Of a stretch of 64,000 bases of DNA, positions 19,868 to 53,944 are shown piece by piece; position 1 is the first letter of the stretch, and the number at the start of each line of letters is the position of its first letter. This stretch comes from Rubripirellula reticaptiva. GTDB taxonomy: Bacteria > Planctomycetota > Planctomycetia > Pirellulales > Pirellulaceae. Where the stretch lies: positions 310,001 through 374,000 of the forward strand of contig NZ_SJPX01000004.1 of NCBI RefSeq assembly GCF_007860175.1. The letters are read 5' to 3'. Under the pieces are notes generated by a model. It was not told where the DNA came from and ran no database searches. It saw only the letters and a program-made list of their open reading frames with translations. Made by a program: the position numbers and the translations under genes.

Positions 19868-20463
19868 CAATCAATCCAGTGTGACTTCAGTTGTTCCGAG
19901 AGCTGCAACCGTGCAGCTTGCCAACGTCGTTTCAACGTCGCAAGTGAAATCCCTAGTACCTTCGATGCTTCTGGTTGACTCATTCCGTCGTACCACAACA
20001 GGCCAACAACCGCCTGTTGATCTTCTGACAACTGTTCGACAGCAACGTGAAATTCAGACCAATGCTCTAGCGATTCAGGCTCGTAGTTGGTGTCCGCTGA
20101 TTTCCCTGCGGTTTCTCCAGCATTCGTGTCGTGGTTGGCACCAACACCTTCTGCGCCAGAGAAGCGGCGAGCCAGATCGATCAATTCTCTTCTAATTTGA
20201 GTTCCTGCCAGTCCGTAAAACTGCTTCGGTGATTCAGGCTTCACTTGGGCCAGCGATTTGTGCAGCCGAATCATGGCGTTCTGCAAAACGTCGTCGGTTT
20301 GTGACCATCTCGACACCGTTGGGAATGATCGAAGCATTTGCCTTGTTCTAAGCCTGAGACGCTCGCATGTGTGCTCGATGATCGCTTCACGAGCTTCCAA
20401 ATCGCCTGAATTGAATTCGATCAAGCGTTCTTGGAGAGCAGTTGTGTGTCCGAGGTGATTCAT
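19867..20463 (-). CDS. ECF sigma factor of the planctomycete kinase-associated type
   Basis: 198 residues from ATG 20463. Region 2 contains WSQTDDVLQNAMIRLHKSLAQV and region 4 QQAVVGLLWYDGMSQPEASKVLGISLATLKRRWQAAR, a helix-turn-helix for the -35 element. The linker between them carries SADTNYEPES, which is encoded by an exact copy of the 14-base repeat CGGACACCAACTAC (20083-20096). The downstream kinase start overlaps its stop. Confidence 0.88.
   Translation of the reverse strand: MNHLGHTTALQERLIEFNSGDLEAREAIIEHTCERLRLRTRQMLRSFPTVSRWSQTDDVLQNAMIRLHKSLAQVKPESPKQFYGLAGTQIRRELIDLARRFSGAEGVGANHDTNAGETAGKSADTNYEPESLEHWSEFHVAVEQLSEDQQAVVGLLWYDGMSQPEASKVLGISLATLKRRWQAARLQLSEQLKSHWID
20083..20096 (-). 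repeat. Stop-abutting repeat, copy inside sigma-factor coding sequence
   Basis: Exact CGGACACCAACTAC in the sense of the sigma gene, read as (A)DTNY in the linker between regions 2 and 4. The triplet before it is out of frame. Confidence 0.75.
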
Positions 20464-20554
20464 GCCGCCCAGTTTACTGGGTCGTTTGCAGGAATGAATC
20501 AGCCCACACAAACCTGAGCGAGAACAAAGAGGAAATAGGCTCAGGAGTTTCTGG

Positions 20555-20567
20555 CGGACACCAGTTA
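20555..20567 (+). repeat. Stop-abutting repeat, CGGACACCAGTTA
   Basis: Preceded by TGG instead of a stop and followed by AGGAG. It is the first plus-strand copy and lies 80 bases before the GYF gene at 20647. Confidence 0.7.
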
Positions 20568-20646
20568 GGAGAAATGTGAGCCTATTTGTTGCTGGCTCTC
20601 GCTTAGTAATGCATCCAACAACTTCCCTGAATCTCCGAGAAAACAC

Positions 20647-21390
20647 ATGGCAACTGGCGAATGGTACTACTCAAAAGGCGACGAGCGGACTGGTCCAATT
20701 TCCTCCACGGAACTTAAGCAACTCGTTACAGACGGGGCGCTTCAGCCTACCGACCTTGTTTGGAAACAAGGTTGGCCGGAGTGGAAGCCAGCCACTGCCG
20801 TCAAAGGTTTGATCGTCACGACACCGGACACCGCCCCGCCGCCAGTCCCAAGCCAGTCGGCGTCGATTTCCACTGGGCGTTCAGCCAGTGAAAAATTCTG
20901 TGAGTCTTGTGGGAAAGCAATCAACGAGGCAGCAGTCATCTGTCCGCATTGCGGAGTAAAGCAAAAGACGGCAGGAATCGCAGGATTTTTTCGAAAGCAG
21001 GTTGCCCGAATCAACGAAAAAATTGCCATGGCGAAGGCGGCGATCAGCGAAGAAATGCAAATGGAAACCGGCATCTCGACACCTCATAAGGTCGTCGCAA
21101 TTGTCGTCGCCGTTGCTGCCGGTTGGTCTGGCATTACTGGTTTGGGATCGATCATTGCTGGGCGACAGAAAGCCGGATTTGCAATGCTGGGCTTGCCACT
21201 GATTCTTGGAGTTCTGACTGGCGTGTGCATGATGGCAACAATCTTCAGTGGAATCGCCAGCATCTTCATCATCGGTATTCCTTTCTTTATTGTCTTCGGA
21301 ACACTCTCGTTGGGGCTGCTTCCCCTGTTTGCCACAACATACATCAGCTTTTATGTGGCCGACGTGATGATCTGTGTCAAAGCGAAGTGA
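20647..21390 (+). CDS. GYF-domain, zinc-ribbon membrane protein
   Basis: 247 residues. The N-terminus is a GYF_2 domain (EWYYSKGDERTGPISSTELKQL ... LVWKQGWPEW), a proline-rich-peptide-binding fold frequent in planctomycete membrane proteins. A Pro-rich linker leads to a zinc ribbon (FCESCGKAINEAAVICPHCGVK). The C-terminal third has about three hydrophobic segments. Its function is unknown; it may be a membrane adaptor. It is the first of two GYF proteins in this run. Confidence 0.8.
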   Translation: MATGEWYYSKGDERTGPISSTELKQLVTDGALQPTDLVWKQGWPEWKPATAVKGLIVTTPDTAPPPVPSQSASISTGRSASEKFCESCGKAINEAAVICPHCGVKQKTAGIAGFFRKQVARINEKIAMAKAAISEEMQMETGISTPHKVVAIVVAVAAGWSGITGLGSIIAGRQKAGFAMLGLPLILGVLTGVCMMATIFSGIASIFIIGIPFFIVFGTLSLGLLPLFATTYISFYVADVMICVKAK

Positions 21391-21528
21391 TGCAACACGA
21401 ACTTTCTCGTTACTCAATTAGTTTGTGGATTTCTTCGAGCCACCGAATTGTGTTTACACCAAACCCAAAGGCTTAAAGTAAATGACATCTTCCCACGGCA
21501 ATCAGAAATTGAAAAGGACTCAATAATC

Positions 21529-22281
21529 GTGAAATACGTGACTATCGGATGTGGAGGTTGTGCTGGACTCTTTGTGCTGCTTCTTATTTGCAGTGGTGTT
21601 CTGTCGATCATCGCCACAACAATTGATCCCGAAGGCTATGCAAACGTCCAAGCGGAAAAGAACCGAGACGGATCAGCAACTGAACCAAAAGGTTCATCTA
21701 TCGGTGATGAATTGAACGAAGAATTCTTTCCCTATCATGCAGGAACGAAACTTCACTACGTTCGTGTTTCACACCTTGGTGACCAGCAAGTCAAATCGCA
21801 AATCGAAATCAGCTTCGATCGTGACAATGTAATGCGGAGTCAGAATATTGACAGCTTCATTGCTGGCGGGGCGGGCGGTTCCATTCCGTTTCCAGCCGGG
21901 GCAGATGAGCATTACCGAAAACGAAATGGCTTCGTCGAACTGGGACAGATGAACGATGGTTCCGGCCAAATGGACTGGACGCCACTGATTAAAACTGGAG
22001 CAACCGCTGGCGAGCAGTGGGATCAAGTGATCTACGGCGAAACAACCACATTCACGGTTGTTCGCTTTGAAGATCGGCAATTGCACTTGGATGAAACCGA
22101 CACTCCCGTTCGATGTGCGGTCGTACGACAGTCCGTTCCCGTTGGCACTTCGGGTTCGATTGATGTTGAAACGACTTTCGCCAAAGGCATCGGCATCTTT
22201 CGACGAGTTAGCACAATGAACACTGGTGGCAAATCAAAGATTGACTGGCGAGAAACCCTGCGGCCACCCGTTGAAAATTGA
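21529..22281 (+). CDS. Membrane-anchored hypothetical protein
   Basis: About 250 residues using GTG 21529, preceded by AAAAGGA; a longer frame from TTG 21448 lacks a good ribosome site. It starts with one transmembrane helix (CAGLFVLLLICSGVLSIIATT) and continues as a soluble domain starting LNEEFFPYHAGTKLHYVRVS, which has the look of exported proteins with a DUF3108-like or lipoprotein-type beta fold. I do not recognise a family with certainty. Confidence 0.6.
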   Translation: MKYVTIGCGGCAGLFVLLLICSGVLSIIATTIDPEGYANVQAEKNRDGSATEPKGSSIGDELNEEFFPYHAGTKLHYVRVSHLGDQQVKSQIEISFDRDNVMRSQNIDSFIAGGAGGSIPFPAGADEHYRKRNGFVELGQMNDGSGQMDWTPLIKTGATAGEQWDQVIYGETTTFTVVRFEDRQLHLDETDTPVRCAVVRQSVPVGTSGSIDVETTFAKGIGIFRRVSTMNTGGKSKIDWRETLRPPVEN

Positions 22282-22341
22282 GCCGGTTTTACTTTCATTC
22301 GATTCACCAGCCTCGCACTCCCGAAATTCGAGACGCACAGT

Positions 22342-23979
22342 ATGACACAACAAAATTGGTTTTTCAAAAAAGACGGTCATCAACATGGTCCGGTTCCTGC
22401 GAAGGAACTCAAACAACTTGCAGACGCTGGCAGAATAGAGGCTGACGATCTGGTGCGAAACGAATCCACGGAGAAGTGGGTTCGTGCAAAATCAGTGAAA
22501 GGACTGATTCGTGTAGAACCGACTGCTGGACCGCCACCACTTCCAAAGAAAGCATCACAGCCTGAACCAGTAGTGGCCGCAGCGAACCCGACACTCCTTG
22601 AAAAGTTGAAATCGTCGGCATCTGAAATCGCAGACGCAACAAAAAATGCTGGTGTCGTTGCAGCACGCCAAGCAGAGATGGCACGTATCAAAACAGTGGA
22701 TCTTCCGAGGGCGTATTCAAAACTTGGCGAAGAGATTCGGCGTCAGGCGAAGTTTCGATCGGACTTTCCAGACATACACCAGCGGATTGATGGAATCGAG
22801 AAGAAGCATACTTCAATTCAAGATGCAGCGAATTCGATTTCAGTTGAGGAAGGCGTTTCTGGTAAGGCGAAGTCGCTTGCCCGAAAAGCCAAGTTGAAGG
22901 CAGAGGAAGGAACGCTTCGTGTTCAGAAATCGCAGGCAGTAAAGGATCTAGGCGAATCCGCCTTCCAACTTCATGGCAAAGCAGCAGGAGAATCATCGCT
23001 AGTTTCTCAGATCGAAACCTTGCAGAGTCGAGTCAACGAAATCGTCACTGAAATAGAGACGCATGAAGATTCGGCGTCGAGTTCCTTCTTGCGTCCCAAG
23101 CGATTGGTCTTGGTGGGAGCAGCCTGCGTGGGATTGCTGTTGATGTACATTGCCATTTCCACGTTTTCATCAACTGGGGATTCGACTGCTGATTCGTCGA
23201 AACTCAGGGAAGGTGTCGCCAACTACGCCGCATTGTTTTCAGACAAGCAGCAGGGCAAGCCAATCGAAAATCACGTGGGAAAAACGGTGGTCGTGTCTGG
23301 CGTGTCGTTTGCCAAAGGGGAACACGAGTCTGGTTCGCAAATCAGCATTGAATGTCAGGACGGCATGGTTGCAATGTGCCGTTTCAAGGCTCCCGATGCG
23401 TGGAAGGGAGACCGGCGGCAATTCTCGATTGCGGGCACCTTCAGTGAAGTGTTCATTCGAGGTCAGTTTGTGCTAACCGATTGCCAGATCGTGGACCTAA
23501 GCAGCTTGAAACCCGAAGCACAAACGCCACCACCCCTTGCTAACGCAATTGAACTAGCGACTCAGGTTGGTACGACACTGGAAACGCCCCGGTGGATTGA
23601 GCAGAAGTACAACCCGAGCATTAAGGACTTGAAGGGGCACAAAACCGACACATCGATTGTACTTGACTTCGATGTTGAAACGTCGATGTGGATGGAGGCC
23701 AACTGGCTGCTCCCGTTGGTCATCAATCTCTACGATGCGGATGGGGGCTTTATTACTCGGTTCGAGACGGACGAACGATTCACCGTTGACCAAAGTTTTC
23801 ATGTCCAATGTCGTCAAGCATACGAATCGGATATCCGTCGAGGTATCCCAAATGGCATTGCTGCGAAGAACAACAGTAGTCTGCTAAAATCTTCTGGCAA
23901 CCGACTGGAGTACCAAGTGAGCTACGGTGTTCTTCGTGATACCGCCGTCGTTCAGATTGGATTTTACCAGTCCAAGTAG
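22342..23979 (+). CDS. GYF-domain membrane protein with OB-fold (tRNA_anti-like) domain
   Basis: 545 residues. Order: GYF_2 domain (residues 5-60, NWFFKKDGHQHGPVPAKELKQL), an alpha-helical middle with heptad-like spacing (about 90-235), one transmembrane helix (LVLVGAACVGLLLMYIAIS), then a tRNA_anti-like OB fold (ENHVGKTVVVSGVS ... FIRGQFVLTDCQIVD) and a final beta domain. The topology puts GYF inside the cell and the OB fold outside. The function is unknown. The stop TAG abuts a copy of the repeat. Confidence 0.75.
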   Translation: MTQQNWFFKKDGHQHGPVPAKELKQLADAGRIEADDLVRNESTEKWVRAKSVKGLIRVEPTAGPPPLPKKASQPEPVVAAANPTLLEKLKSSASEIADATKNAGVVAARQAEMARIKTVDLPRAYSKLGEEIRRQAKFRSDFPDIHQRIDGIEKKHTSIQDAANSISVEEGVSGKAKSLARKAKLKAEEGTLRVQKSQAVKDLGESAFQLHGKAAGESSLVSQIETLQSRVNEIVTEIETHEDSASSSFLRPKRLVLVGAACVGLLLMYIAISTFSSTGDSTADSSKLREGVANYAALFSDKQQGKPIENHVGKTVVVSGVSFAKGEHESGSQISIECQDGMVAMCRFKAPDAWKGDRRQFSIAGTFSEVFIRGQFVLTDCQIVDLSSLKPEAQTPPPLANAIELATQVGTTLETPRWIEQKYNPSIKDLKGHKTDTSIVLDFDVETSMWMEANWLLPLVINLYDADGGFITRFETDERFTVDQSFHVQCRQAYESDIRRGIPNGIAAKNNSSLLKSSGNRLEYQVSYGVLRDTAVVQIGFYQSK

Positions 23980-23996
23980 CGGACACCAGCGATTAC
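23980..23996 (+). repeat. Stop-abutting repeat, CGGACACCAGCGATTAC
   Basis: Directly follows the TAG stop of the GYF/OB-fold gene. It carries three extra bases in its right half compared with other copies. Confidence 0.7.
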
Positions 23997-24336: not shown

Positions 24337-25869
24337 ATGTCTATTGATCCCTACCGAGTGTGGCTTGGCATCCCGTCCGACCGGCGGCCACCGACATACT
24401 ATGACATTCTTTCGCTCGAACCCGGCGAAAGCGACGAAGCGGTCATCCGTAGTGCTGCGGAACAACGAAGAAGCTATGTGCTGTCCAAGCAAGGAGGGGA
24501 CCATGACAGAGCGGTCTACAAAATTCTTGGGCAAATCGACGAAGCGGTGGCGACGCTGGTCGTCCCGGCAACGAAGTTTGAATATGACAGACTTATCGGT
24601 CTTCATGCAAAGACAAACAAAGCGGGAAAGCGGCGTTCTAAATCGCACGCCAAACACCAAAAGTCGCCTGAGAGGATTTACGGCGAAGGCAGCGGTATTG
24701 TTTCCGGTTTTGCTGGGATCATGGGCGTAATCAGCATCTGCATCGGAGCAATGGTTTGGTTGAGTTTTCAAATGCCGTGGGGGAAACTAGCACAATCGCC
24801 CGATGTGAATGACGTGGCTTTGGATATCCCGAAATCCAATACAGACAGTCATGGTGCAGAGTCTTTTTCTCACCGTCCTGACACGACATCCACTGAAACC
24901 AAAGAATTTAGCAAGCTTGCATCGTCTCTAAGTGAGGTGCGACAACCTGACAATTGTGTCTTCAAAGGGCTCTCGATTTCAATTGCCAAAAACGGCAAAT
25001 GTGTCATCGGAGTGAATAGCGAAGATAAACCCGTTCAGTTTGCCGAGGCTGATGGCGACAAAAAGGGAATAGCGATATTTGGCACGTCACCCGTTTGGAG
25101 ACAAACAGATGGACGGCTTCACGTGGTTTCTGACTTTGCCCAACTTAAGGATCTGTCGGGACTGAACCCCCGATCTATTGCGAGTGAGCAGCACCTGTTG
25201 ATTGACAATCACTTGGCGATAGATGACGGATTGCTTGTTTTATCACCGAAGGAAAGAAAAAATGTTTCGTTTGGGTTGCCACGTTCGATCATGGCTCCTA
25301 TCGAATTACAGATAGCACTGTCAGGGCATAGCGACGGGGCGTTGCTTGTCCAATTCAATATACAAGATAGAACCCTGATCGTCGGGCTGCATGGAGCAAG
25401 GTCGCCGGAACCTGATGCGGACCCCGGAATGGTTCTAGTTGCAGAGCGTGACAAGAAAGGAAACTTTACTAATCTCGTGCGAGTTGTTCAGCCCGCTGGG
25501 AAGTCGATGGAATACGATTTTCAAATCGAAGCACCTCACATGGATCGGGCAGCGTTGTCTATCGGGGTGCGATCAGACCATCCACTAGCAATCCGCCGCA
25601 TGGACGTTGCAGCAAAGTTCCCCCCGTCGTTTGGAATGGCATTAGACCAGCGGGGCCAACGTGTTTTGGTTAAACGCACAATAGAGGGAGACGCCGCAGC
25701 GTCGGCTGGGATCAAGTCCGGTGATGTGATACTTCAAGTGGATGGCAGTTCGGCGAACAGTATGCAACAGGTACTCGACATTCTCGCTACCACAGTTATT
25801 GGAGACGAAGTTGCTCTAACTGTCGAGCGATTTGGTCAGCGAAAAGTTTTTTCAGTGTTCCCCAACTAA
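24337..25869 (+). CDS. J-like domain, transmembrane, PDZ protein of planctomycete type
   Basis: 510 residues. The N-terminus (DPYRVWLGIPSDRRPPTYYDILSL ... YDRLIGL) is the DnaJ-like segment that opens many planctomycete proteins. One transmembrane helix follows near residue 130 (FAGIMGVISICIGAMVWLS). The C-terminal 80 residues form a PDZ domain (GMALDQRGQRVLVKRTIEGDAA, GIKSGDVILQVDG). The middle is not recognised. A role in membrane quality control or as a scaffold is plausible but unproven. Its TAA stop abuts the repeat. Confidence 0.75.
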   Translation: MSIDPYRVWLGIPSDRRPPTYYDILSLEPGESDEAVIRSAAEQRRSYVLSKQGGDHDRAVYKILGQIDEAVATLVVPATKFEYDRLIGLHAKTNKAGKRRSKSHAKHQKSPERIYGEGSGIVSGFAGIMGVISICIGAMVWLSFQMPWGKLAQSPDVNDVALDIPKSNTDSHGAESFSHRPDTTSTETKEFSKLASSLSEVRQPDNCVFKGLSISIAKNGKCVIGVNSEDKPVQFAEADGDKKGIAIFGTSPVWRQTDGRLHVVSDFAQLKDLSGLNPRSIASEQHLLIDNHLAIDDGLLVLSPKERKNVSFGLPRSIMAPIELQIALSGHSDGALLVQFNIQDRTLIVGLHGARSPEPDADPGMVLVAERDKKGNFTNLVRVVQPAGKSMEYDFQIEAPHMDRAALSIGVRSDHPLAIRRMDVAAKFPPSFGMALDQRGQRVLVKRTIEGDAAASAGIKSGDVILQVDGSSANSMQQVLDILATTVIGDEVALTVERFGQRKVFSVFPN

Positions 25870-25883
25870 CGGACACCAACTAC
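25870..25883 (+). repeat. Stop-abutting repeat, CGGACACCAACTAC
   Basis: Follows the TAA of the J-like/PDZ gene directly; the next start is 27 bases downstream. Confidence 0.8.
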
Positions 25884-26314: not shown

Positions 26315-26916
26315 TCGGTCGCCTGTTCATCCTGTCTGCTTTTCCGGCCATGTGGTTGAGCGGCAGTTGTTCGTTCTTGGCATCAGTGTGCTGGGCGTTA
26401 GGTGCGTTTGCCTTTCTGCTTGTCATCGATTCCGGTCGTGGCATCAGAACGCTTCCGTCAACAATCGTCGCTCGTTTTATGTTTGCGATTGCGATGTTCG
26501 TGTTCTTTCTGTTCTATCTGCTCGGCAACCACGCAGCAGGTAGAATGTACTGGACCTTAGCTGACTGCCTCGTTGTCCCGTTCTGGGTCACAGTCATCGT
26601 TGCAACCCTATTCTGGACTTGCCTTTACTTCGGAACATTGTTGTTTCGTAACGACCTTGGTTACCAACAGTGGGCTCGGGCTGGCGGTCACTATTTCTGG
26701 GACACATTGCCACGGATTCTCAACCGAGACAGTGAGTTGGTTCGCAATGGCGGATTTGCAGAGCCCACCTACACGGATTTTATCCCGCCAACTCATTTTC
26801 AAAATCAATGTCCAAAATGTGGTGCTCGTGTTCAGCACGCATTCGGTGTTTGTTGGAACTGCAACTATGGAGCAGACGGTGACGCAACCGCATTCTACGA
26901 ACGGTATGGTCGATAA
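26311..26916 (+). CDS. Multi-pass membrane protein with C-terminal zinc ribbon
   Basis: 201 residues with three or four hydrophobic segments in the first 125 (for example FMFAIAMFVFFLFYLLG and VIVATLFWTCLYFGTLLF), then a cytoplasmic tail with NQCPKCGARVQHAFGVCWNCNYG, a zinc ribbon. Coupled to the preceding gene by an ATGA overlap. The function is unknown. Its TAA abuts a repeat copy. Confidence 0.65.
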   Translation: MIGRLFILSAFPAMWLSGSCSFLASVCWALGAFAFLLVIDSGRGIRTLPSTIVARFMFAIAMFVFFLFYLLGNHAAGRMYWTLADCLVVPFWVTVIVATLFWTCLYFGTLLFRNDLGYQQWARAGGHYFWDTLPRILNRDSELVRNGGFAEPTYTDFIPPTHFQNQCPKCGARVQHAFGVCWNCNYGADGDATAFYERYGR

Positions 26917-26930
26917 CGGACACCAACTAC
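26917..26930 (+). repeat. Stop-abutting repeat, CGGACACCAACTAC
   Basis: Directly follows TAA of the membrane zinc-ribbon gene; only 21 bases, including AAAAGGAGAA, separate it from the next ATG, leaving no room for an attC-like hairpin. Confidence 0.8.
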
Positions 26931-44820: not shown

Positions 44821-45426
44821 TCAAGCAATCGGTTCGACTTCTCGAAGCACACGATAAATCGTCGGTCGTGACAGCCCTGTCACACGTGCAATCTGTGTGA
44901 TCTTTCGGCCCGCTGCTTTCATCTCGTGGATCGCATTCACTTGATCGTCCGTCACTTTCCAGCGCCAGCCCTTATCGCTGCCGCCCCACGTCTTTCCTCG
45001 TTTACGTGCGGCTGATTGACCGGCTGCAACTCGCTCGGCTCTGATCTCCGTCTCGTATTCAGCAACGCTCGCCAGAATGCGTGCGTGCAAGCGACCGGCT
45101 GGTGATGCCAAGCTAAACCCATCCTTCATGCTGACCAGATCGACACCACGTTCGTGAAGTTCATCGAACAGTTGGCAAAGTCCCTTCGTTGTTCGGCCAA
45201 GACGATCGAGTCTCCAGACAACGATGCGATCGAGCTTGCCTGCACGCAAGGCTTCCATCATCTTGTCCATGCCGGGCCGACTCATCGTTCGTCCCGTGAA
45301 AGAGTCCTTGAAGTAGATCACTGGCTCGCCGTGGGCTGCGGCCCATCGTTCAAGATCAGGCATCTGGCTACGGTGATCCTGCTGCTTGCTACTTACCCGA
45401 ACGTAGATCGCTGTCTTCTTGGTCAT
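44821..45426 (-). CDS. Serine recombinase, resolvase/invertase type
   Basis: 201 residues. Catalytic Ser in YVRVSSKQQ, arginine-rich VVWRLDRLGRTTKGL, the long E helix (ILASVAEYETEIRAERVAAG) and a C-terminal helix-turn-helix (ITQIARVTGLSRPTIYRVL). Full length for the small resolvase class. It would resolve cointegrates or invert DNA of the mobile region. A repeat copy precedes its start. Confidence 0.92.
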   Translation of the reverse strand: MTKKTAIYVRVSSKQQDHRSQMPDLERWAAAHGEPVIYFKDSFTGRTMSRPGMDKMMEALRAGKLDRIVVWRLDRLGRTTKGLCQLFDELHERGVDLVSMKDGFSLASPAGRLHARILASVAEYETEIRAERVAAGQSAARKRGKTWGGSDKGWRWKVTDDQVNAIHEMKAAGRKITQIARVTGLSRPTIYRVLREVEPIA

Positions 45427-45460
45427 GTTTTCAACTCCACTGACTGATGAACTCAGCGAT

Positions 45461-45474
45461 GTAGTTGGTGTCCG
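45461..45474 (-). repeat. Stop-abutting repeat upstream of the recombinase
   Basis: CGGACACCAACTAC preceded by TAA (45475-45477), but no gene ending at that TAA is visible; the recombinase ATG is 35 bases downstream. Confidence 0.75.
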
Positions 45475-45637
45475 TTACTGTAAACTGTCATTTTTATTCG
45501 ACCCGTTACAGTTCCGTTCTCACGATTCACCGGCGATTGGATCGAATTCGAGCCGATTTCAGAACACTACTGACACTTTACAGAATCGATCGTCAGCTTC
45601 CGTTGATACAATGCGGTCTGTCTCTGGGAGCCGTCCA

Positions 45638-46223: not shown

Positions 46224-46236
46224 TAGCCGGTGTCCG
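46224..46236 (-). repeat. Stop-abutting repeat, CGGACACCGGCTA
   Basis: Not next to a stop; preceded by CCA. Closes a 100-base unit with no long gene that starts at the copy at 46338. Confidence 0.7.
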
Positions 46237-46337
46237 TGGGAAAGAAATGGGCGTCATCCGTGACGCCCGAGCCAACAACACTGCTCACTCTGGAGACCAC
46301 GAGAAATACAGGCGTGGCTGATGTTGGAACACGGGAG
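46237..46337 (-). other. Gene-less unit between two repeat copies, with hairpin
   Basis: Contains a perfect eight-base stem GGGCGTCA / TGACGCCC with loop TCCG (46249-46268). A 25-codon frame from GTG runs through it and ends at the TAA inside the next repeat copy, but it has no ribosome site. It may encode a small RNA or be an eroded gene. Confidence 0.35.
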
Positions 46338-46350
46338 TAGGCGGTGTCCG
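46338..46350 (-). repeat. Stop-abutting repeat, CGGACACCGCCTA
   Basis: Directly follows the TGA of the 94-residue gene. Confidence 0.75.
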
Positions 46351-46635
46351 TCAGTATTCCTCTGGTAGTAATATGCAAGTCGAGGATCGGTCGGCCTCGG
46401 TGATGACGTAGAGCTTCTCACCCTTGGCGGTGTGATAGACGCTCAGGATTCTCTCGCCGTCTTCTAATGCCTGTTCATTGGCTGCTGCGTCATCTTCGCA
46501 AACGTCTCCCCAAGATCCCTGCTGATGATTGCGAAGAAACTTAGCGGCGGTCTCCGACGACTCGGCCAACTTCTCCAGTGCTCCCGGTGTGGCGACAACT
46601 CGGCCAAGATCAAACTTTGGCTCATTTGGTTTCAT
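46351..46635 (-). CDS. Conserved hypothetical protein of mobile elements
   Basis: 94 residues from ATG 46635 (MKPNEPKFDLGRVVATPGALEKL). The ending EKLYVITEADRSSTCILLPEEY and internal GSWGDVCEDDAAANEQAL are very like small proteins seen on plasmids and integrative elements of many phyla. The function is unknown. This is good evidence that the array is of mobile origin. Confidence 0.75.
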   Translation of the reverse strand: MKPNEPKFDLGRVVATPGALEKLAESSETAAKFLRNHQQGSWGDVCEDDAAANEQALEDGERILSVYHTAKGEKLYVITEADRSSTCILLPEEY

Positions 46636-46812: not shown

Positions 46813-46826
46813 GTAGCTGGTGTCCG
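46813..46826 (-). repeat. Stop-abutting repeat, CGGACACCAGCTAC
   Basis: Directly follows the TAG of the 62-residue acidic protein gene. Confidence 0.8.
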
Positions 46827-47015
46827 CTACCAGTCTTCGCCGCCGTAGTAGCCGAAGTGCTCGTCAGCTTGCTCGAAATCTTCCAGTTCCTGCTGAGCCA
46901 GCGTCTCATCCCACGGTTCGTCGGCGGGATATTCTTCGACGGCTTGTTCATCGAGAATTTCCCCATAGCCGCCGTTGATGTGGTCTTCCATGAATTGGTC
47001 CAGCAAGTCGTCCAT
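46827..47015 (-). CDS. Small acidic hypothetical protein
   Basis: 62 residues from ATG 47015, preceded by GGAGAAAACG. Strongly acidic (MDDLLDQFMEDHINGGYGE ... EDFEQADEHFGYYGGEDW), like DNA-mimic or antirestriction proteins, though this is only a resemblance in charge. A longer frame upstream would translate the repeat itself and is rejected. Confidence 0.6.
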   Translation of the reverse strand: MDDLLDQFMEDHINGGYGEILDEQAVEEYPADEPWDETLAQQELEDFEQADEHFGYYGGEDW

Positions 47016-47051: not shown

Positions 47052-47065
47052 GTAGTTGGTGTCCC
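47052..47065 (-). repeat. Stop-abutting repeat, GGGACACCAACTAC
   Basis: Directly follows the TGA of the 133-residue gene. The first base is G rather than C. Confidence 0.78.
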
Positions 47066-47467
47066 TCAATCACATTCGCACTCGAATTCAGTCGGTGCCA
47101 CGTTTTCATCAGTGATGCAACCGCCTGAGTAGCGGCAAGGGAATGGTGTGGCTGAAACTTCCTGTCCATAAATCATGATGTGGTCAAGATCCAGCACTTG
47201 CCCAGATGGGCCGTAGTGACACGATTCAGGGTCGTAGTCACTCAGGTACTCGTCTTCGACAACGATGTGGTGCCCGTGTTTCTCGTCGTCGGCCAGTTCG
47301 TCGATGGCATCTGACATGCTGTCGGCTTCGACAACGAGGTAGAGCGACGAGTACGATCCGCCTATTTCGATCAGCCACGTCTTGCCGAACCAGCCACCGG
47401 GATTGATAACCGAAATGTCGGAGAGTTCTTGGCCGTGGAAATTGGCACTGGCTTTGACTTGGCACAT
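47066..47467 (-). CDS. Hypothetical protein of mobile elements
   Basis: 133 residues. WFGKTWLIEIGGSYSSLYLVVEADSMSDAIDELADDEKHGHHIVVED suggests a small alpha/beta domain; the C-terminus holds CRYSGGC and ECECD cysteines. No named family. GTGTAAACAA occurs in the leader of this gene and of the next gene downstream. Confidence 0.6.
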   Translation of the reverse strand: MCQVKASANFHGQELSDISVINPGGWFGKTWLIEIGGSYSSLYLVVEADSMSDAIDELADDEKHGHHIVVEDEYLSDYDPESCHYGPSGQVLDLDHIMIYGQEVSATPFPCRYSGGCITDENVAPTEFECECD

Positions 47468-47504: not shown

Positions 47505-47517
47505 TAGCCGGTGTCCG
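47505..47517 (-). repeat. Stop-abutting repeat, CGGACACCGGCTA
   Basis: Preceded by TGA, but the frame upstream is closed by TAA six bases earlier; a gene has probably been lost here. Confidence 0.72.
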
Positions 47518-47563
47518 TCACGCTTAGTGAACGGGCGGAATGCGAAGCCGTCGTGGCTAATTC

Positions 47564-47713
47564 ATGAACGATATCCCAAGAGCAATGAACGCTCATTGGC
47601 TCCAGATCGTCGATACATTTTGGCGGCGACAGGCTGGAGCCTTGCAGATAGAAACCGCACTACAACTTTTGGAATGGTGCCAAACATCGCTCAGACAATG
47701 GCAGGCTGACTGA
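47564..47713 (+). CDS. Possible 49-residue protein
   Basis: ATG 47564 to TGA 47713: MNDIPRAMNAHWLQIVDTFW, then an amphipathic helix (ALQIETALQLLEWCQ). Composition is protein-like but no good ribosome site is present and no family is recognised. Confidence 0.3.
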   Translation: MNDIPRAMNAHWLQIVDTFWRRQAGALQIETALQLLEWCQTSLRQWQAD

Positions 47714-48467
47714 ACCAAAGAACCGAAGGATCTTGGTAAATTCGTCCCCCGAAGGGGGCGAATTGTTGGCCTGCCAGTGAGCGAGCGTCAGCGAGTGAAC
47801 AAAGGCCAACAGTACCCGACGTGCAGAAATGCTTGGTAACTGAAGCGACTGAAACTGATCGGCCAGAATGGATGCTGACGAGAGGGCAGATAGAGGTCTG
47901 ACTGCTTCAGAGCGAGAGCGAAAATTTGCGCAGATCTCGCCCGAAAAACAAAAACGCCTAACTAAAAGTTTAGTTTAGTAATACTTAGTCCTATGAAGGT
48001 TAAGTCAAAGTCAGCGTTCGCTACGCTCACTTGCCTTTGACAAATGGACGGCTTCGCCGTCCAATTTACTTTAATTTCTAGGACTTTTTCTGAGTGTCGC
48101 TTTGGCGGCGCAGCGACCCCACGCCGGAACGTGGGAAAAAAATTCGGCGGCGTCCAGCAATGATTTTGATGACGGTGTTTTGCTGGCTTTCACCCATCAC
48201 ACCGGAGAAAGGCGATCATAGATCACGTTAGCAGGCAGTACGTCGTCACCGGACCCGCTCACTTCTCGTATCCCCTGATATTATGCCGCAGGGCTGATCG
48301 CCGAAAAGACTCGGCACGGCTTTCCCATGTTTTTTGCTACGTCGGGACAACGCCAAAGTAAATTTGCTGTAACTGTGTCGGGAGCTTACCGGAAACTGCG
48401 TTATCCGGCAAACATTTTATCATAGTGTCAGCTTTCAATTTTTGGCTCGAAAGTTGGAACATTGTTT
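47714..48467. other. Hairpin-rich non-coding region, candidate origin or transfer site
   Basis: About 750 bases with no credible gene. It holds AATTCG-CCCCC inverted repeat (47739-47764), GTTGGCCT/AGGCCAAC (47765-47810), ACTAAAAGTTTAGT (47961-47974), GTCAAAG/CTTTGAC with an inner AGCG/CGCT stem (48004-48041), GGACGGC/GCCGTCC (48046-48062) and CCCACG/CGTGGG (48118-48135). TGTAACTGTG at 48368 is shared with the structured elements at 58.6 and 59.6 kb. Clusters like this are usual at plasmid origins, but no replication initiator is adjacent. Confidence 0.5.
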
Positions 48468-48480
48468 TAGCTGGTGTCCG
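48468..48480 (-). repeat. Stop-abutting repeat, CGGACACCAGCTA
   Basis: Preceded by TGG, 43 bases after the phosphatase stop and not in its frame. Confidence 0.7.
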
Positions 48481-48523
48481 CCAGAATTAAAGAACCGACG
48501 AAAGATAACATTTGCTCTTTAGA

Positions 48524-49229: not shown

Positions 49230-49242
49230 TAGCCGGTGTCCG
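49230..49242 (-). repeat. Stop-abutting repeat, CGGACACCGGCTA
   Basis: Directly follows the TGA of the 102-residue gene. Confidence 0.78.
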
Positions 49243-49551
49243 TCAGATCGGAATCACCTCGTATTCGGCAGAGTCGCCACGTTGAATTTGATCGACGGCC
49301 CCAAATGCCGCCATCTCACGTTCGGTGGTGATACGGCACAGGCTGTTAAGCTTGCTGACAAACGCAAGGTTCACTGGGTGGTTGTTTAGGACATCACCAC
49401 GAACGCCTTCCTTGCTCATCGCCAGCAAGTGGCGATGCCATGCCCCAACCACAGCGGTCAGATTCACTGCGGACTGAACAGCGTTGGCGTCACTGGCCGC
49501 ACGTTGCTGAACGGCGTTACTTCCATCTGCGATTGCTTTGGTTGCCTGCAT
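49243..49551 (-). CDS. Hypothetical protein
   Basis: 102 residues from ATG 49551 with GGAGAACA upstream. Mostly helical (AVNLTAVVGAWHRHLLAMSKEGVRGD); no family recognised. Flanked by repeat copies on both sides. Its leader can fold (CTGAGACAACGGGGTCTCAG). Confidence 0.55.
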   Translation of the reverse strand: MQATKAIADGSNAVQQRAASDANAVQSAVNLTAVVGAWHRHLLAMSKEGVRGDVLNNHPVNLAFVSKLNSLCRITTEREMAAFGAVDQIQRGDSAEYEVIPI

Positions 49552-49603: not shown

Positions 49604-49616
49604 TAACCGGTGTCCG
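49604..49616 (-). repeat. Stop-abutting repeat, CGGACACCGGTTA
   Basis: Directly follows the TAA of the ATPase gene. Confidence 0.78.
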
Positions 49617-50507
49617 TTAGCTTCCGCTCCTATTCCGGTTTAGTGCCCGGTAGAACGTTGCCCTCGACTTCTTCGTTTTGTCGCAGAAGTATCGTTGTTG
49701 ATCACTCACCGAATCAGGAAACTTATCTTGAGCTTCCAAAAGCAGTCGCTCTTGCTGCTCGTGGTTGCTCAAGCGTTTCGTTGCCGAGACTGGTCGCCCG
49801 AGGTTTTGCATTTGAGCAAGCACAACAGGACGCCAGTCAGTGCCGTTCTCGCTGCAAAATTTGTAAATGCGAATTGCTGGTGTCAGAAGACGCATTGAAA
49901 GCTGTTTTTCATCGCCGTGTTCCTCGATGAAATCTACGATCTCTTCGGCGGCTTCTGATGGGCAACCGGGATAGCCGTTCTCTGTCATCGCTCGGAATTG
50001 TTCGATGATTTCGGCATTGCTCAAATCCATTCGGTAGACCAAACACCGTGAAACTACGGCATCGAAAATCGGGCACTTCTTGGGCACTTTGTTTGCACAA
50101 AAGATGAACCGAGAAGTTGTCTCGAAACGTCCCGGAAGGTCCGAGGGCAAGGTGCTGCTGTTGTAGGTCACCAACCGATTCGGTTGTCCAAACAACGCAC
50201 TGCGGAGAATGCCCAAGGCTGGACCGGATTTGTACAGTTCATCGCAATCGTCGATGTAAATCACTTTGTCGTTTTGCGAGTTCTGGTACAGGACTCGGTA
50301 AAGCTGAAGCGGAGTGCAGTGGCTATTGTAGGTTTCTACATCCTGTCCCTCGTCACGGAGAACGTTGGTGATCGTTCGTGATTTGCCCGTGCCGCCCTGC
50401 GAAATCACGAACAGAGCGTGGTACTGGCTCTGGGCGATCATCCGAACCATGTTCGCCAGATGGCCTTGCTTCTCTTCGACTCGTGTTTGGGGGCGTTCGA
50501 CTTGCAT
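49617..50507 (-). CDS. AAA+-like P-loop ATPase of plasmid type
   Basis: 296 residues from ATG 50507; a longer frame would translate a repeat copy. Walker A ISQGGTGKSRT, Walker B KVIYIDDCDELYK, then RFIFCANKVPKKCP (sensor 1 Asn) and ETTSRF. The C-terminal part may bind DNA. Similar ATPases occur on plasmids and phages without a settled role. Its leader contains a perfect palindrome, CCAACTCCAA and TTGGAGTTGG (50540-50562). Confidence 0.72.
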   Translation of the reverse strand: MQVERPQTRVEEKQGHLANMVRMIAQSQYHALFVISQGGTGKSRTITNVLRDEGQDVETYNSHCTPLQLYRVLYQNSQNDKVIYIDDCDELYKSGPALGILRSALFGQPNRLVTYNSSTLPSDLPGRFETTSRFIFCANKVPKKCPIFDAVVSRCLVYRMDLSNAEIIEQFRAMTENGYPGCPSEAAEEIVDFIEEHGDEKQLSMRLLTPAIRIYKFCSENGTDWRPVVLAQMQNLGRPVSATKRLSNHEQQERLLLEAQDKFPDSVSDQQRYFCDKTKKSRATFYRALNRNRSGS

Positions 50508-50579: not shown

Positions 50580-50593
50580 GTAGTTGGTGTCCG
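50580..50593 (-). repeat. Stop-abutting repeat, CGGACACCAACTAC
   Basis: Directly follows the TAA of the 101-residue gene. Confidence 0.8.
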
Positions 50594-50899
50594 TTATTCG
50601 AGCCACACCTTGTGGAAACCTTCACGGTCGATCCAATAACCGAAACCGCCGTTGTCGCACGTGTTGTTCTGCTCGATCAGTTCAAAGGCTCTATCCGCCA
50701 GCACATCATTGGGCAGTTCTTCGATTCGGCTTCGCTCAGCATCGGCTGCACGCTTGGCGTGCTCAATTTCACCCTTCTCGTAAACCGCCTCGAACTTGTC
50801 GTCAGTGATCGCTGCGATAAGGTTTTCACGATTCCAGTCGTCGAGCTTCTCACGAATCTCTGACCAGCCTTCTGCTGTGATTGAAACTTCCCACGCCAT
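50594..50899 (-). CDS. Hypothetical protein
   Basis: 101 residues from ATG 50899 (MAWEVSITAEGWSEIREKL). Charged, helical (EIEHAKRAADAERSRIEELP) with a glycine-rich GGFGYWIDREGFHKVWLE end. Not recognised; similar-looking proteins occur on plasmids. Leader carries TCCAAAAGTTGGAGTTG. Confidence 0.55.
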   Translation of the reverse strand: MAWEVSITAEGWSEIREKLDDWNRENLIAAITDDKFEAVYEKGEIEHAKRAADAERSRIEELPNDVLADRAFELIEQNNTCDNGGFGYWIDREGFHKVWLE

Positions 50900-50944
50900 C
50901 GTCGGCTCCCGTTCCAAAAGTTGGAGTTGTTTGCTTCTGATGGC

Positions 50945-50958
50945 GTAGTTGGTGTCCG
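50945..50958 (-). repeat. Stop-abutting repeat, CGGACACCAACTAC
   Basis: Directly follows the TAG of the 138-residue gene. Confidence 0.8.
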
Positions 50959-51375
50959 CTACTCCAATCCCATGGCCTCACGTCCGACATAAGTCCCACA
51001 GTCGTCGATGCCCAGAACCATAAGGATGGAGCTTTGCAGTGACGTGGCGGCGTCCCAGAGTTCATCAGCCGAGTGATCGTCGGTCGCTTTGAATTCAGTG
51101 TCGCCAAGCCGTCGCAGCAGCACGCAGAGCGATTGCGGCGATACTTCGCAGTAGCCGTTGTCGAAGATGTCCGTTCCCTTGATGAAGCAGGCTTCAAGGT
51201 ATGCGTCAATGCCTTGGTTCACACATTGAGCAATCGCCGCCCATTCAGCCTTACAGCGAATTGTCATGGTGAATGGATCGCTGTCAGTGGCTTCGATGGC
51301 CTTCAGGACAGTTGAGTACGGAACGCCTACAAGCTGGCAGTTGGTGATCGTGTTTTCAATTTCGACTTCGGACAT
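50959..51375 (-). CDS. Hypothetical protein
   Basis: 138 residues with GGAGAAAACC before ATG. CEVSPQSLCVLLRRLG and LWDAATSLQSSILMVLGIDD suggest a compact alpha/beta protein; no family named. Same leader and spacing style as its neighbours. Confidence 0.55.
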   Translation of the reverse strand: MSEVEIENTITNCQLVGVPYSTVLKAIEATDSDPFTMTIRCKAEWAAIAQCVNQGIDAYLEACFIKGTDIFDNGYCEVSPQSLCVLLRRLGDTEFKATDDHSADELWDAATSLQSSILMVLGIDDCGTYVGREAMGLE

Positions 51376-51411
51376 GGTTTTCTCCGTCAGGTTTTGGTTG
51401 TGTCTGACGAA

Positions 51412-51425
51412 GTAGTTGGTGTCCG
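51412..51425 (-). repeat. Stop-abutting repeat, CGGACACCAACTAC
   Basis: Directly follows the TAA of the 114-residue gene. Confidence 0.8.
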
Positions 51426-51770
51426 TTATTCATCGCCCAGAAGATCTTTGACCTTTCCGATCACGTCCTGCTCAAAAGCATCTGACGCAAACACGGCGAA
51501 CGGGAAGTCGTCCGTGCTGGCGTAGTTGTCTTTGTGCGTCCCGTTGAAGAAGGCTGCACATGGATGTGCGGAGTACAGCAACGTGTGAATCTGGAGTTCG
51601 CTGTTGATCACATAGTCATGCAACTCAATCTGCTCATTGACCAACTGCTGCAAGCTTTCATCTCGATTGGTGTCGTCGGCTTCAAGCTCGGCGATGATGT
51701 TCTCGGCAACGTCAGCGATTGCTTGACGATAGTTGTCGAGTTGTTCTTGAGTTTGCTGGTCACGTGCCAT
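51426..51770 (-). CDS. Hypothetical protein
   Basis: 114 residues, GGAGAACAAGCAG before ATG. Helical and acidic N-terminus (QEQLDNYRQAIADVAENIIAELEADDTNRDE); no named family. Followed upstream by a 210-base spacer to the ArdC gene end. Confidence 0.55.
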   Translation of the reverse strand: MARDQQTQEQLDNYRQAIADVAENIIAELEADDTNRDESLQQLVNEQIELHDYVINSELQIHTLLYSAHPCAAFFNGTHKDNYASTDDFPFAVFASDAFEQDVIGKVKDLLGDE

Positions 51771-51980
51771 CTGCTTGTTCTCCGAAAGGCGAGTTAAAAA
51801 GCCGATTGGGACGCATCACTGATCGTTCGGCGGCTTGAGGCTTCGCATTGGCAGTGATTCCTGATGGTTGCTGCGCAGTCCAATCCATCAGGTTCGTGCT
51901 GCATGATTGGCGTCAAAGCCAAGCGGCGATTCGATCAGTGAAGGCGTCCTTCTCGGTGTGTCCCGACCGGAACGCCCCTT

Positions 51981-51993
51981 TAGCTGGTGTCCG
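51981..51993 (-). repeat. Stop-abutting repeat, CGGACACCAGCTA, 45 bases after the ArdC stop
   Basis: Preceded by TAG (51994-51996), which is in frame with the ardC-like gene 15 codons beyond its present TGA stop. Confidence 0.75.
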
Positions 51994-52038
51994 CTAGGTA
52001 AAGCAGCGACTCCATTCGCTGCCTTCCCGACACAACCA

Positions 52039-52932
52039 TCAAACGATGATGGCTGGTTCTCGTTCCTCGACTCGCTTCGTGCTGCAATCCATTAAGAAGG
52101 CGACTGCTTTGCTGGCCTGAGAAGATGCTTTGAAGATGAACTTTTCATCTTCCATGCCCTTGAGCCAGTGCTTCAGGTAAGCGGCGTGATTGTCGAGGCT
52201 GCTCGTGACAGGCAAGCCAAGCTCGGCCATCATGAAACATGCCCCCATCTCGGCAATCAGTTCACCCATCGCATAGCCTTCGTTCTTGCGATCCCAGTTC
52301 AGACGACTTTCGTGCTCGGTGTAGTGGATGTGCTCATGAAAGCAGGTCTCGTAAAATGCCTCGGGTGAACTGAAACGAGTGCGGTGAGGCAATTGAATGT
52401 AGTCGCCCTGCGGAGTGTAGAACGCTTGATTGCCGCCGTAGCGAATGTCAGCACCGATGTCGTCGATCAGTTGATCGGCGTGTTCGTAGCTCTCAAAAGG
52501 CACTTGGGCTTCAACTTCTTCACTGACTTGAAATTGCTCAAGCGTTGTCTGGTCGGCGTTGAAAACTCGGAAGCTTCGCATGACGAAAAATGAATCGTCA
52601 ACTTCCTTGCCAGCATCGTTGACCTTGGTTCGTTCAACAGGTCGATACAGAACAACCGTCGTGGACTTGGAACCCCTCAAGACGCTGCCGCCCTGTTGCT
52701 TAATTTGATTGAACGTGGCCCACCATCTTGAGTGAAAGTTGTTCTTCATTGCTGAGCACATCAAGATCAACTGGTTTATTCCTCGATATGGCCTACCGCC
52801 CGACGACAAGCTGGTGTGAAGACCGGGACTGTTTGGATCGCAGGACCAACTTTTTCGCCAAGGTGGCAAACCGCCAGCGGTCAGGGCTTCGATGATGGTG
52901 GCAGTGATTTCGGTGTGAAGTGAAGTGGACAT
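52039..52932 (-). CDS. ArdC-type antirestriction/ssDNA-binding zincin protein
   Basis: 297 residues from ATG 52932. The ArdC N-terminal domain is evident in LPPWRKSWS, RPYRGINQLIL, WWATFNQIKQQGGSVLRGSKSTTVVLY. The C-terminal metallopeptidase-like domain has the zinc motif CFHEHIHYTEHESRLNW and FGMGELIAEMGACFMM-like second part (YAMGELIAEMGACF). ArdC protects incoming plasmid DNA from restriction. The current TGA is followed by 14 sense codons to a TAG that abuts a repeat copy, suggesting a shortened C-terminus. Confidence 0.88.
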   Translation of the reverse strand: MSTSLHTEITATIIEALTAGGLPPWRKSWSCDPNSPGLHTSLSSGGRPYRGINQLILMCSAMKNNFHSRWWATFNQIKQQGGSVLRGSKSTTVVLYRPVERTKVNDAGKEVDDSFFVMRSFRVFNADQTTLEQFQVSEEVEAQVPFESYEHADQLIDDIGADIRYGGNQAFYTPQGDYIQLPHRTRFSSPEAFYETCFHEHIHYTEHESRLNWDRKNEGYAMGELIAEMGACFMMAELGLPVTSSLDNHAAYLKHWLKGMEDEKFIFKASSQASKAVAFLMDCSTKRVEEREPAIIV

Positions 52933-52967
52933 CGGCGGCTCCAAGTGAGTGGGTTGGTGATGCCGAT

Positions 52968-52981
52968 GTAGTTGGTGTCCG
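52968..52981 (-). repeat. Stop-abutting repeat upstream of the ArdC gene
   Basis: CGGACACCAACTAC preceded by TAA. The frame ending there is open for about 55 codons upstream to 53150 without an ATG except ten codons before the stop. Confidence 0.75.
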
Positions 52982-53152
52982 TTATTTCAAAGGGGGCTTG
53001 TCTGGCTTTCTCATGGGAACTGAGACACGAGTTTCAAATTGGCTTGTCGCATTGTTCGTTCTCAAATTGGCGAGACAGAAAAAGCGGTCACCAATTGGTG
53101 ATGACTGAGTGATTTGCCGTGCCGTTTGACTTTGTTGGTTTTCAAGTCTCAA
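52982..53152 (-). pseudogene. Short open frame ending at a repeat copy, probable gene remnant
   Basis: An open frame of about 55 codons ending KPDKPPLK-TAA exactly at the repeat. It lacks an ATG start apart from the last ten codons; TTG is possible. The composition is not convincingly protein-like. Listed because the end position follows the rule seen for real genes. Confidence 0.25.
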
Positions 53153-53210
53153 TTTTCATTCGTCTCGGAGTCTGTTGGTCGATGGATCGTTCCCGGTCTC
53201 ATCAACACAA

Positions 53211-53223
53211 TGGACACCGGCTA
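53211..53223 (+). repeat. Stop-abutting repeat variant, TGGACACCGGCTA
   Basis: Plus-strand copy 35 bases before the DUF1963 gene; no stop precedes it. Marks the point where the array changes strand. Confidence 0.65.
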
Positions 53224-53257
53224 AAATGGTGCGACAACACAAGTCAAGGAGAGGGCC

Positions 53258-53944
53258 ATGACAAAGAAGCAAGTAATCGAATTCACCGAAACTGACTCGC
53301 CGATCACCGAGCCGGTGACGAAGTTTGGTGGACAACCTGTTTGGATCGACGAGCCTGCTTGGCCGCTGAGTCGAGAATCCGGCAACCAAATGCGATTCAT
53401 TGGGCAAGTGGAATTGCGGGAAGAGTACGGGTTCACCACGCCCGCAAAGATGGCGTACCTGTTCATGACGGAAGAGGAAGACGACAGCTTTGTGGATGGC
53501 ACGTATGAGCCTGATGGCGGCGAGAATGCTGTTATTCTCCAGCCGGGAACTTCACGGACACCAACTACGAACAAGGCGGACGGCCCAACGCTTTTCAAGA
53601 TGGTCCAAGTGGAAAGGAAAGATCGACTTCAGAAGCAAACCTGCGAATTCGCTGTCAAACTGATCGAGACTGACGACATCAAGTTTGTCTCTGAAGATGA
53701 CCGATTCAAGATGTCCGAAAAAGATGCGGCAGCGGTTACCGGGAAACTCGACGAAAACAAAATCGGTGGATCACCTGTCTTCATGCAAGGCGACGAATTT
53801 CCGTTTGAAGGTCAATGCCAACTGCTTGTTCAACTTGACTCATGCAGCGTCCCGTTTTCGATCAACTTTGGCGATGCCGGTGTCGGCTATGCTTTCTTAA
53901 GCGAGGACGGTATGGAAGCGAAGTTCCTTTGGCAGTGTGGGTAG
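53258..53944 (+). CDS. DUF1963 family protein
   Basis: 228 residues with AAGGAGAGG before ATG. Two halves match DUF1963: TKFGGQPVWIDEPAWP ... RFIGQVEL and KIGGSPVFMQGDEFP ... LLVQLDS ... GDAGVGYAFL. The joining linker SRTPTTN is encoded by an exact copy of the repeat, with TCA in frame where other copies have a stop. Function unknown; some relatives are predicted binding proteins in polymorphic toxin or immunity contexts. Confidence 0.8.
   Translation: MTKKQVIEFTETDSPITEPVTKFGGQPVWIDEPAWPLSRESGNQMRFIGQVELREEYGFTTPAKMAYLFMTEEEDDSFVDGTYEPDGGENAVILQPGTSRTPTTNKADGPTLFKMVQVERKDRLQKQTCEFAVKLIETDDIKFVSEDDRFKMSEKDAAAVTGKLDENKIGGSPVFMQGDEFPFEGQCQLLVQLDSCSVPFSINFGDAGVGYAFLSEDGMEAKFLWQCG
53555..53568 (+). 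repeat. Stop-abutting repeat, copy inside DUF1963 coding sequence
   Basis: Exact CGGACACCAACTAC in the gene sense; the preceding in-frame triplet is TCA, one change from TAA or TGA. It encodes RTPTT in the linker between the two halves. Confidence 0.75.

Follow-up and report, generated by a model that had tools for sequence, protein, structure and literature searches.

A short stop-overlapping repeat opens backbone gene units in a planctomycete integrative element and may act as a 5'-leader signal

A stretch of 64,000 nucleotides from Rubripirellula reticaptiva (contig NZ_SJPX01000004.1, positions 310,001 to 374,000; hereafter the window, at its full length) carries a short directional repeat, here called the box. 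The box is confined to an integrative element, is conserved in orthologous leaders of related elements and is attached to the unit downstream of it; the sequence that follows it folds more than expected and holds an excess of CAAC. With somewhat less than even confidence, the box is read here as a 5'-leader signal that opens the expression units of the element backbone and would act in RNA. A DNA signal of the promoter or operator type is a close rival to this reading.

The pattern CGGACACCRRYTA was found in the window between 20.08 and 53.57 kb in 17 exact and four one-mismatch copies, which bears out the figure of about 20 copies between 20 and 53.6 kb given in a preliminary description of this DNA. 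At up to two mismatches, 26 window matches were counted compared with 6.6 expected, and none of 100 shuffles reached 26. The 7.85-Mb genome contains 19 exact copies and three of the reversed pattern, and 17 of the 19 fall within the window (binomial P ~5e-34). The repeat is real, non-random and strand-polar. Altogether 22 copies were inspected, 21 in the window and one beyond it; 20 lie outside protein genes and two inside (20099- and 53552+). In a weight-matrix scan over 144 kb, with the matrix trained on the box copies themselves, the copies scored at least 19.7 and the next best stretch 15.0, and the reversed control reached 19.8 once. From the copy at 26.9 kb to that at 45.5 kb no stretch reached 9 bits, in agreement with the absence from the RNA-repair region described before.

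The copies belong to an 87.6-kb stretch which, judged from its sequence, is an integrative element, window positions 1-17.9 kb being host DNA. A 55-bp direct repeat with one indel was found at window 17960-18014 and, 87.6 kb away, over the 3' end of a tRNA-Ala gene and its terminator. Both ends of the stretch thus carry the tRNA 3' end in direct repeat, the mark of integration into a tRNA gene. Inside the element lie 18 of the 19 exact genome copies, namely all those in the window and one 41 kb further. All window copies lie in this one element, and the catabolic region noted earlier is part of the host chromosome. The element contains a P4-family primase, an ArdC-like protein, a serine recombinase and, at the tRNA end, a 541-aa gene with a box in its leader at window coordinate 105373 (-). 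From its place this gene may be integrase-like; it matched weakly (25% over 246 positions) the gene adjoining the transfer-messenger RNA (tmRNA) gene of the element in genome G455, and neither Pfam nor PHROG nor NCBIfam matched the 436-437 aa tested. The main landmarks are as follows.

17960..18014, no strand: attL-like 55-bp repeat, left element end; partner at L288:1498-1551, window coordinate ~105.5 kb.
44821..45426, minus strand: serine recombinase (Resolvase, DNA-invertase type).
50959..51375, minus strand: 138-aa conserved backbone protein with 112 homologs.
52039..52932, minus strand: ArdC-like anti-restriction protein.
55358..57814, minus strand: P4-family primase/helicase (Prim-Pol + D5).

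A structure model of the 138-aa protein (pLDDT 84.6) had no PDB match at E<=0.001. Its 112 homologs include proteins of Novipirellula artificiosorum (G455, hereafter N) and Fuerstiella marisgermanici (G581, hereafter F). Both genomes hold homologous elements with box arrays, the boxes standing at orthologous places, and the shared array genes and their boxes are collinear in N, F and the window element (W). The primase and recombinase of F are 93% and 94% identical to the window proteins. The only integrase-family match among the end genes was a 477-aa protein of F (phrog_1), which lies ~55 kb off the array, perhaps in the same element; its gene too has a box, immediately 3' of the stop of an excisionase-like gene. 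The 266-aa protein adjoining this integrase (L396:8496-9296) was assigned to no family. The N element adjoins the tmRNA gene, next to a 645-aa recombinase-like open reading frame (ORF; L368:10739-13116).

An exact 16-bp match was present in nine of 396 genomes of the order, as a single copy in each save the window genome, and in 13 of 397 genomes of the class, where more than two copies occurred only in the window genome (15), G581 (12) and G604 (7). The seven dispersed TAGCGGACACCGGCTA copies of G604 (L397, L398) were set aside as a separate repeat family, as the two inspected had identical flanks. In G236, a genome of another genus in the same family, three box-like copies lie in 1.6 kb adjoining the ortholog of the window ECF/kinase genes. 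Exact 14-mer scans of genomes and viral contigs gave one exact match per stretch among the matches listed, and two strong copies among the retrieved loci were found only at L098, from Paenibacillus macerans (G411). The 80 TRRCGGACACCRRYNA matches of that genome were rejected as coincidence, since the ten loci viewed showed a longer repeat with conserved flanks. Ten viral contigs matched a 17-mer, none with a cluster; the array had no megablast match in phage records, and viral contigs gave no match to the 138-aa protein.

The conserved block comprises 16-18 contiguous bases, T-R-R-C-G-G-A-C-A-C-C-R-R-Y-T-A-(C/A)-A (consensus TRRCGGACACCRRYTA, also written TRR-C-GGACACC-RRY-TA). The flanks are unrelated and conservation beyond the box is weak, which indicates that the copies are not recent duplicates. 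For comparisons, 50 copies were pooled (20 from the window element, 13 each from N and F, two each from F2 and G236); all were used for the folding test and the test of CAAC stem strength described below. A set of 47, lacking the weak copies N 16097, F 14786 and F 21419, served for base and CAAC counts, and a further copy, N 15476, stands outside all copy counts. GGACACC was invariant in 47 of 47 copies, which had been found with a matrix trained on window copies and a cut-off tolerating one core mismatch. Position 12 was A in 34 copies, G in 12 and T in one; position 13 was A in 23, G in 22 and C in two; position 14 was C in 43 and T in four. The earlier statement that the right half varies by transitions only was thus nearly right, but fails for the single T at position 12 and the two C at position 13.

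The copies of the window are given below.

20084..20099, minus strand: box copy CAGCGGACACCAACTA within the ECF sigma gene, at the same site in the G236 ortholog; coding constraint may account for it.
20552..20567, plus strand: box TGGCGGACACCAGTTA in the leader of the GYF-domain gene at 20647, within an inverted repeat; counterpart in G236.
23977..23992, plus strand: box variant TAGCGGACACCAGCGA abutting stop 23979; a hairpin takes in its 3' part, with T-rich sequence after it.
25867..25882, plus strand: box abutting stop 25869, with hairpin GCCTC/GAGGC ahead of gene 25910-26314; leader present in G236 without the stop.
26914..26929, plus strand: box abutting stop 26916, leader of gene 26952-27188.
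45462..45477, minus strand: box in the leader of serine recombinase 44821-45426; ~40 bp upstream kept in F.
46224..46239, minus strand: box CCACGGACACCGGCTA, 9 nt past the terminator-like hairpin 46268-46249; counterpart N 16413.
46338..46353, minus strand: box TGACGGACACCGCCTA abutting stop 46351, opening a 114-nt unit that holds no ORF.
46814..46829, minus strand: box abutting stop 46827, leader of a 49-aa basic protein; counterpart N 17732.
47053..47068, minus strand: box TGAGGGACACCAACTA abutting stop 47066; counterparts N 17980 and F 21006.
47505..47520, minus strand: box in the leader of gene 47066-47467; counterpart F 20557.
48468..48483, minus strand: box TGGCGGACACCAGCTA opening a 963-bp unit (47520-48483) with no convincing ORF, which ends at another box.
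49230..49245, minus strand: box abutting stop 49243, leader of a NinI-like phosphatase; counterpart N 18838.
49604..49619, minus strand: box TAACGGACACCGGTTA abutting stop 49617, leader of a 102-aa gene.
50581..50596, minus strand: box abutting stop 50594, leader of a 296-aa gene (weak AAA hit); counterpart F 18902.
50946..50961, minus strand: box abutting stop 50959, leader of a 101-aa gene; counterpart F 18540.
51413..51428, minus strand: box abutting stop 51426, with 9-bp hairpin CTTCGTCAG/CTGACGGAG ahead of the 138-aa gene; counterparts N 20254 and F 18073.
51771..51996, minus strand: box 51981-51996 and a conserved structured non-coding stretch, past a terminator-like hairpin 3' of ArdC.
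52969..52984, minus strand: box in the leader of the ArdC-like gene; counterparts N 21451 and F 16883, with the stem-loop kept and a different stem sequence.
53208..53223, plus strand: box CAATGGACACCGGCTA in the leader of the divergent DUF1963 gene 53258-53944; counterparts N 21679 and F 16654.
53552..53567, plus strand: box-like copy within the DUF1963 gene, coding for residues conserved across homologs; probably a coding coincidence.

The motif had been described as beginning directly after the stops of 11 named genes, and all 11 cases were confirmed: 11 of the 20 non-coding copies abut the stop of a credible gene exactly. The other nine (20552+, 45477-, 46239-, 47520-, 48483-, 51996-, 52984-, 53208+ and 105373-) abut no credible gene; at 105373- the apparent ORF overlaps the tRNA gene. 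The proposed anchoring on stop codons did not survive comparison with N, F and G236, where leaders persist although the gene ahead of them, or its stop, is missing. N and F lack the 114-aa gene whose end meets a window box, yet retain the box and hairpin of the 138-aa gene; N 20254 has CTG in place of the stop. In the G236 ortholog of gene 25910-26314, the box and hairpin are kept (GCCTTG/CGAGGC, compared with GCCTC/GAGGC in the window), with CAG instead of the stop, 86 nt past the previous stop. Because box and leader persist in this way, the box opens the downstream unit.

Of the 26 copies classed as non-abutting, 19 have TRR; the count becomes 18 of 25 once N 17980 is moved, where a truncated relic of the 133-aa gene probably ends. 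That TRR belongs to the box, and that the units are tightly packed, accounts for the overlap with the preceding stop. Within the arrays, the distance from a stop to the next box was 0 in most pairs and 43-52 nt in six (45 and 43 nt in W, 46 and 52 nt in F, 50 and 51 nt in N), and intermediates were not seen. A terminator-like hairpin fills the long gap after ArdC in W, N and F, and also that at N 16413.

A sense start codon follows 20-79 nt past the box in 15 of the 20 non-coding copies, at 20-52 nt in 13 of them. To this extent the claim that the motif always has the sense of the adjacent gene holds, but 46239- has no convincing sense gene after it and faces the 3' end of the opposite-strand gene 45419-46198+. 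The boxes 46353- and 48483- open units with no convincing sense gene, although N 17254, the counterpart of the former, stands ahead of a 145-aa ORF; the nearest sense genes to 23977+ and 51996- are 105 and 210 nt on. The protein of gene 45419-46198+, which lies on the opposite strand within the array, shares 65% identity over 183 aa with that in F.

Against dinucleotide shuffles, the 46 nt 3' of the box showed an excess of stable folding (mean z -1.14, n=50, p=1.6e-5); the 46 nt 5' of it had a mean z of -0.32 (p=0.10; paired comparison with downstream, p=0.02). CAAC occurred at +8 to +20 in 22 of 47 copies, the null mean being 5.5 and the maximum 15 over 300 shuffles; for the window element the count was 11 of 20, reached in none of 500 shuffles. 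It sits in the loop of the stem-loop, and the stems around it are stronger than in shuffled flanks (12.4 versus 8.9, n=23, none of 300 shuffles; likewise none of 300 for the window, n=11). Stem sequences vary between orthologs: the hairpin is kept with differing stems in the ArdC leaders of W, N and F and in the leaders of the 134-aa gene in W and G236. The stretch after ArdC (51771-51996, ~200 nt) is conserved in the three elements as structured non-coding sequence with a box at its start; among its 58 predicted pairs, 11 showed a compensatory change and nine were broken or gapped in at least one sequence, and it had no Rfam match.

These observations suggest that the repeat is the first part (box 1) of a bipartite 5'-leader signal in a family of planctomycete integrative elements. 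A short stem-loop often comes within a few bases of box 1; its stem varies in sequence and its loop often holds CAAC. In most copies a Shine-Dalgarno sequence and start codon come next. The units so opened would be those of the resolvase, the integrase-like gene, the anti-restriction gene and small backbone genes, together with one or more units that are non-coding, conserved and structured, with TRR doubling as the stop of the preceding gene where units are tightly packed. A factor of the host or the element might bind box and loop in RNA and set translation start, processing or stability, which would give the element one common handle over its backbone genes. RNA is favoured as the site of action on account of the stem-loop with its recurrent loop sequence and the conserved blocks found upstream of the box at ArdC (three elements) and the resolvase (two). 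A stronger version is rather doubtful: most backbone units, non-coding RNAs included, would share a bipartite RNA code in their leaders that is private to these elements, made of box 1 and the CAAC stem-loop and overlapping the preceding stop, by which one trans-acting factor or the ribosome itself would switch the backbone post-transcriptionally and leave the cargo outside control.

Several results weigh against an RNA leader signal. The box units at 46353-, 46239- and 48483- lack a sense gene, and another is conserved and non-coding, so that translation cannot be the sole output. Terminator-like hairpins stand 6-12 nt 5' of the box at two conserved places, and this order of hairpin and box suits a promoter as well or better. 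The recombinase-like gene of N has no box in its own leader, and the NinI-like gene of F is located elsewhere and has none. About half of the leaders have no marked fold, and the orthologs among the 50 folded copies are not independent. Column covariation was modest (4 compensatory, 9 one-sided, 66 unchanged and 10 broken) over 13 leader sets, five of which had little or no consensus structure and one of which, that of the 134-aa gene, included N 13128, the leader of a different gene. Shine-Dalgarno accessibility was 0.38 (n=27) compared with 0.42 in control genes (n=50; p=0.5), which leaves simple masking of the Shine-Dalgarno sequence unsupported. Near-complements of the box numbered 18 versus 22 in the control for W, 3 versus 0 for N and 1 versus 4 for F; an antisense RNA partner was rejected, as these were overall not above control, one with a single mismatch lying in the primase gene (56909-). 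No trans-acting protein for the box was found.

The closest competitor, which has a substantial though lesser claim, treats box 1 as a DNA signal, either a compact promoter core or an operator- or stoperator-like site for a regulator encoded by the element or the host, through which transcription of each unit would start under separate control, the stem-loop being a mere stabiliser of the mRNA 5' end. It would account for the terminator-like hairpins 6-12 nt before 51996- (also in N and F) and 46239- (also in N), for boxes ahead of units with no sense genes, and for the boxes flanking the divergent intergenic region, 223, 228 and 227 bp apart in the three elements; polarity and intergenic place also resemble the mycobacteriophage stoperators as described in PMC6550527. 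However, the conserved sequence is a single contiguous GC-rich block of 16-18 bp with neither a second conserved hexamer nor an AT-rich zone, so that the two spaced hexamers of a sigma-70 promoter were not found at the box. Sigma-70-like sites numbered 5 versus 4.7 expected, none overlapping a box, and terminator-like sites in the array 9 versus 9.4 expected, in a scan that lists the hairpin at 46239 but not that at ArdC. The conserved blocks 5' of the box at ArdC and the resolvase point to promoters located there, and the reading as a DNA signal leaves the CAAC stem-loop unexplained. Control by the ECF sigma factor, prompted by G236 sharing both the ECF gene and boxes, was rejected: N has the array with a best ECF match of only 41% identity, and orthologs at 55-65% identity have no box. 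The layout also resembles that of T7 promoters, which prompted the idea of a single-subunit RNA polymerase; PF00940 had no match in the genome, but neither had the control, so its absence is not established.

Two further proposals came from the preliminary description. That gene units are joined or exchanged at box 1, in the manner of an integron, appears improbable. Most units hold a single gene and point the same way, a serine recombinase stands at the array end, and the 102-aa unit, which the window has and N lacks, has seamless junctions exactly at the box; but the order of the shared array genes is the same in the three elements, and gains and losses of the 114-aa gene, the 62/49-aa genes and the NinI to 133-aa segment are not cleanly bounded by boxes. 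Divergent and isolated copies also occur, no integron integrase model matched, and the AAC triplet of attC was found in only eight of 20 window-element copies. A role in translation termination, in which a ribosome with TRR in its A site would hold box 1 in its channel and pass to the next start, is conceivable but cannot be general, and as an explanation of the box it is very improbable. The two classes of stop-to-box gap, 0 or (in six pairs) 43-52 nt, would fit it; however, 26 of 47 copies (25 if N 17980 is moved) are non-abutting and keep box and leader, and first genes and non-coding units also carry the box.

Among known systems, integron attC sites lie directly after stop codons in series of small cassettes and have variable stem sequences, features shared by the box units, which differ in the inverse-core AAC (eight of 20 copies) and in their conserved shared gene order. 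Lambda nut sites consist of boxA and boxB, a linear conserved box followed by an RNA hairpin; the box differs from these in sequence and in its many copies, about one per unit.

The nearest in kind are the start-associated sequences (SAS/ESAS) of Cluster K mycobacteriophages, 13 bp long (GGGATAGGAGCCC), typically 3-7 bp ahead of the start codon and of unknown function (PMC3203893). There, too, a short non-palindromic repeat stands ahead of many genes of one mobile genome in near-uniform orientation, about half the copies with an inverted repeat, is limited to one part of that genome (the non-structural half), and is tied to gene families and nearly absent from the host. The inverted repeat of SAS lies upstream, whereas the stem-loop of the box lies downstream. 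The box is also longer (16-18 bp) and unrelated in sequence, stands mostly 20-52 nt before the start and overlaps the previous stop; neither the GGGATAGGAGCCC consensus nor the 3-7 bp spacing was found. Stoperators of Cluster A mycobacteriophages are asymmetric 13-bp sites, many per genome and mostly in one orientation, which bind the phage immunity repressor and block elongation (PMC6550527). The box shares asymmetry, copy number and, with the exception of 46239-, orientation with the stoperators, but is followed by a stem-loop, and no repressor was recognised among the proteins scanned. In the literature searched, no box-like signal of planctomycetes was described, and the sole match for CGGACACCAACTA was an insect proteomics paper, irrelevant by its title.

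Other features of the element were also recorded. The RNA-repair genes (Thg1, RNA ligase, kinase-HD) are element cargo; this RNA-repair-like set at window 38-42.3 kb (+) comprises a NIF phosphatase, AAA_33 kinases, Thg1, an RNA ligase and an HD domain. The cargo also contains a full-length serpin-domain protein (34439-35674, minus strand). TCCGACA repeats close to both element ends (L288:1371-1450 and window 18070-18110) are possibly recombinase arm sites. PADLOC found no family among nine proteins, and Rfam covariance models gave no window match at gathering scores and none at E<=1 in 44.5-53.7 kb. The ECF sigma/protein kinase pair at window 18140-20646 (-) is patchy in the family (nine of 241 genomes at E<=1e-60). 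The divergent intergenic inverted repeat at 20466-20650 was found in several ECF/kinase orthologs; among those viewed, only the window genome and G236 have a box within it.

The box provides a recognisable signature of these planctomycete integrative elements, by which backbone can be told from cargo and relatives found in other families. If the reading as an RNA leader signal is true, it would represent post-transcriptional coordination of a mobile element, testable with a few leader fusions, and would bear on the role of phage start-associated sequences.

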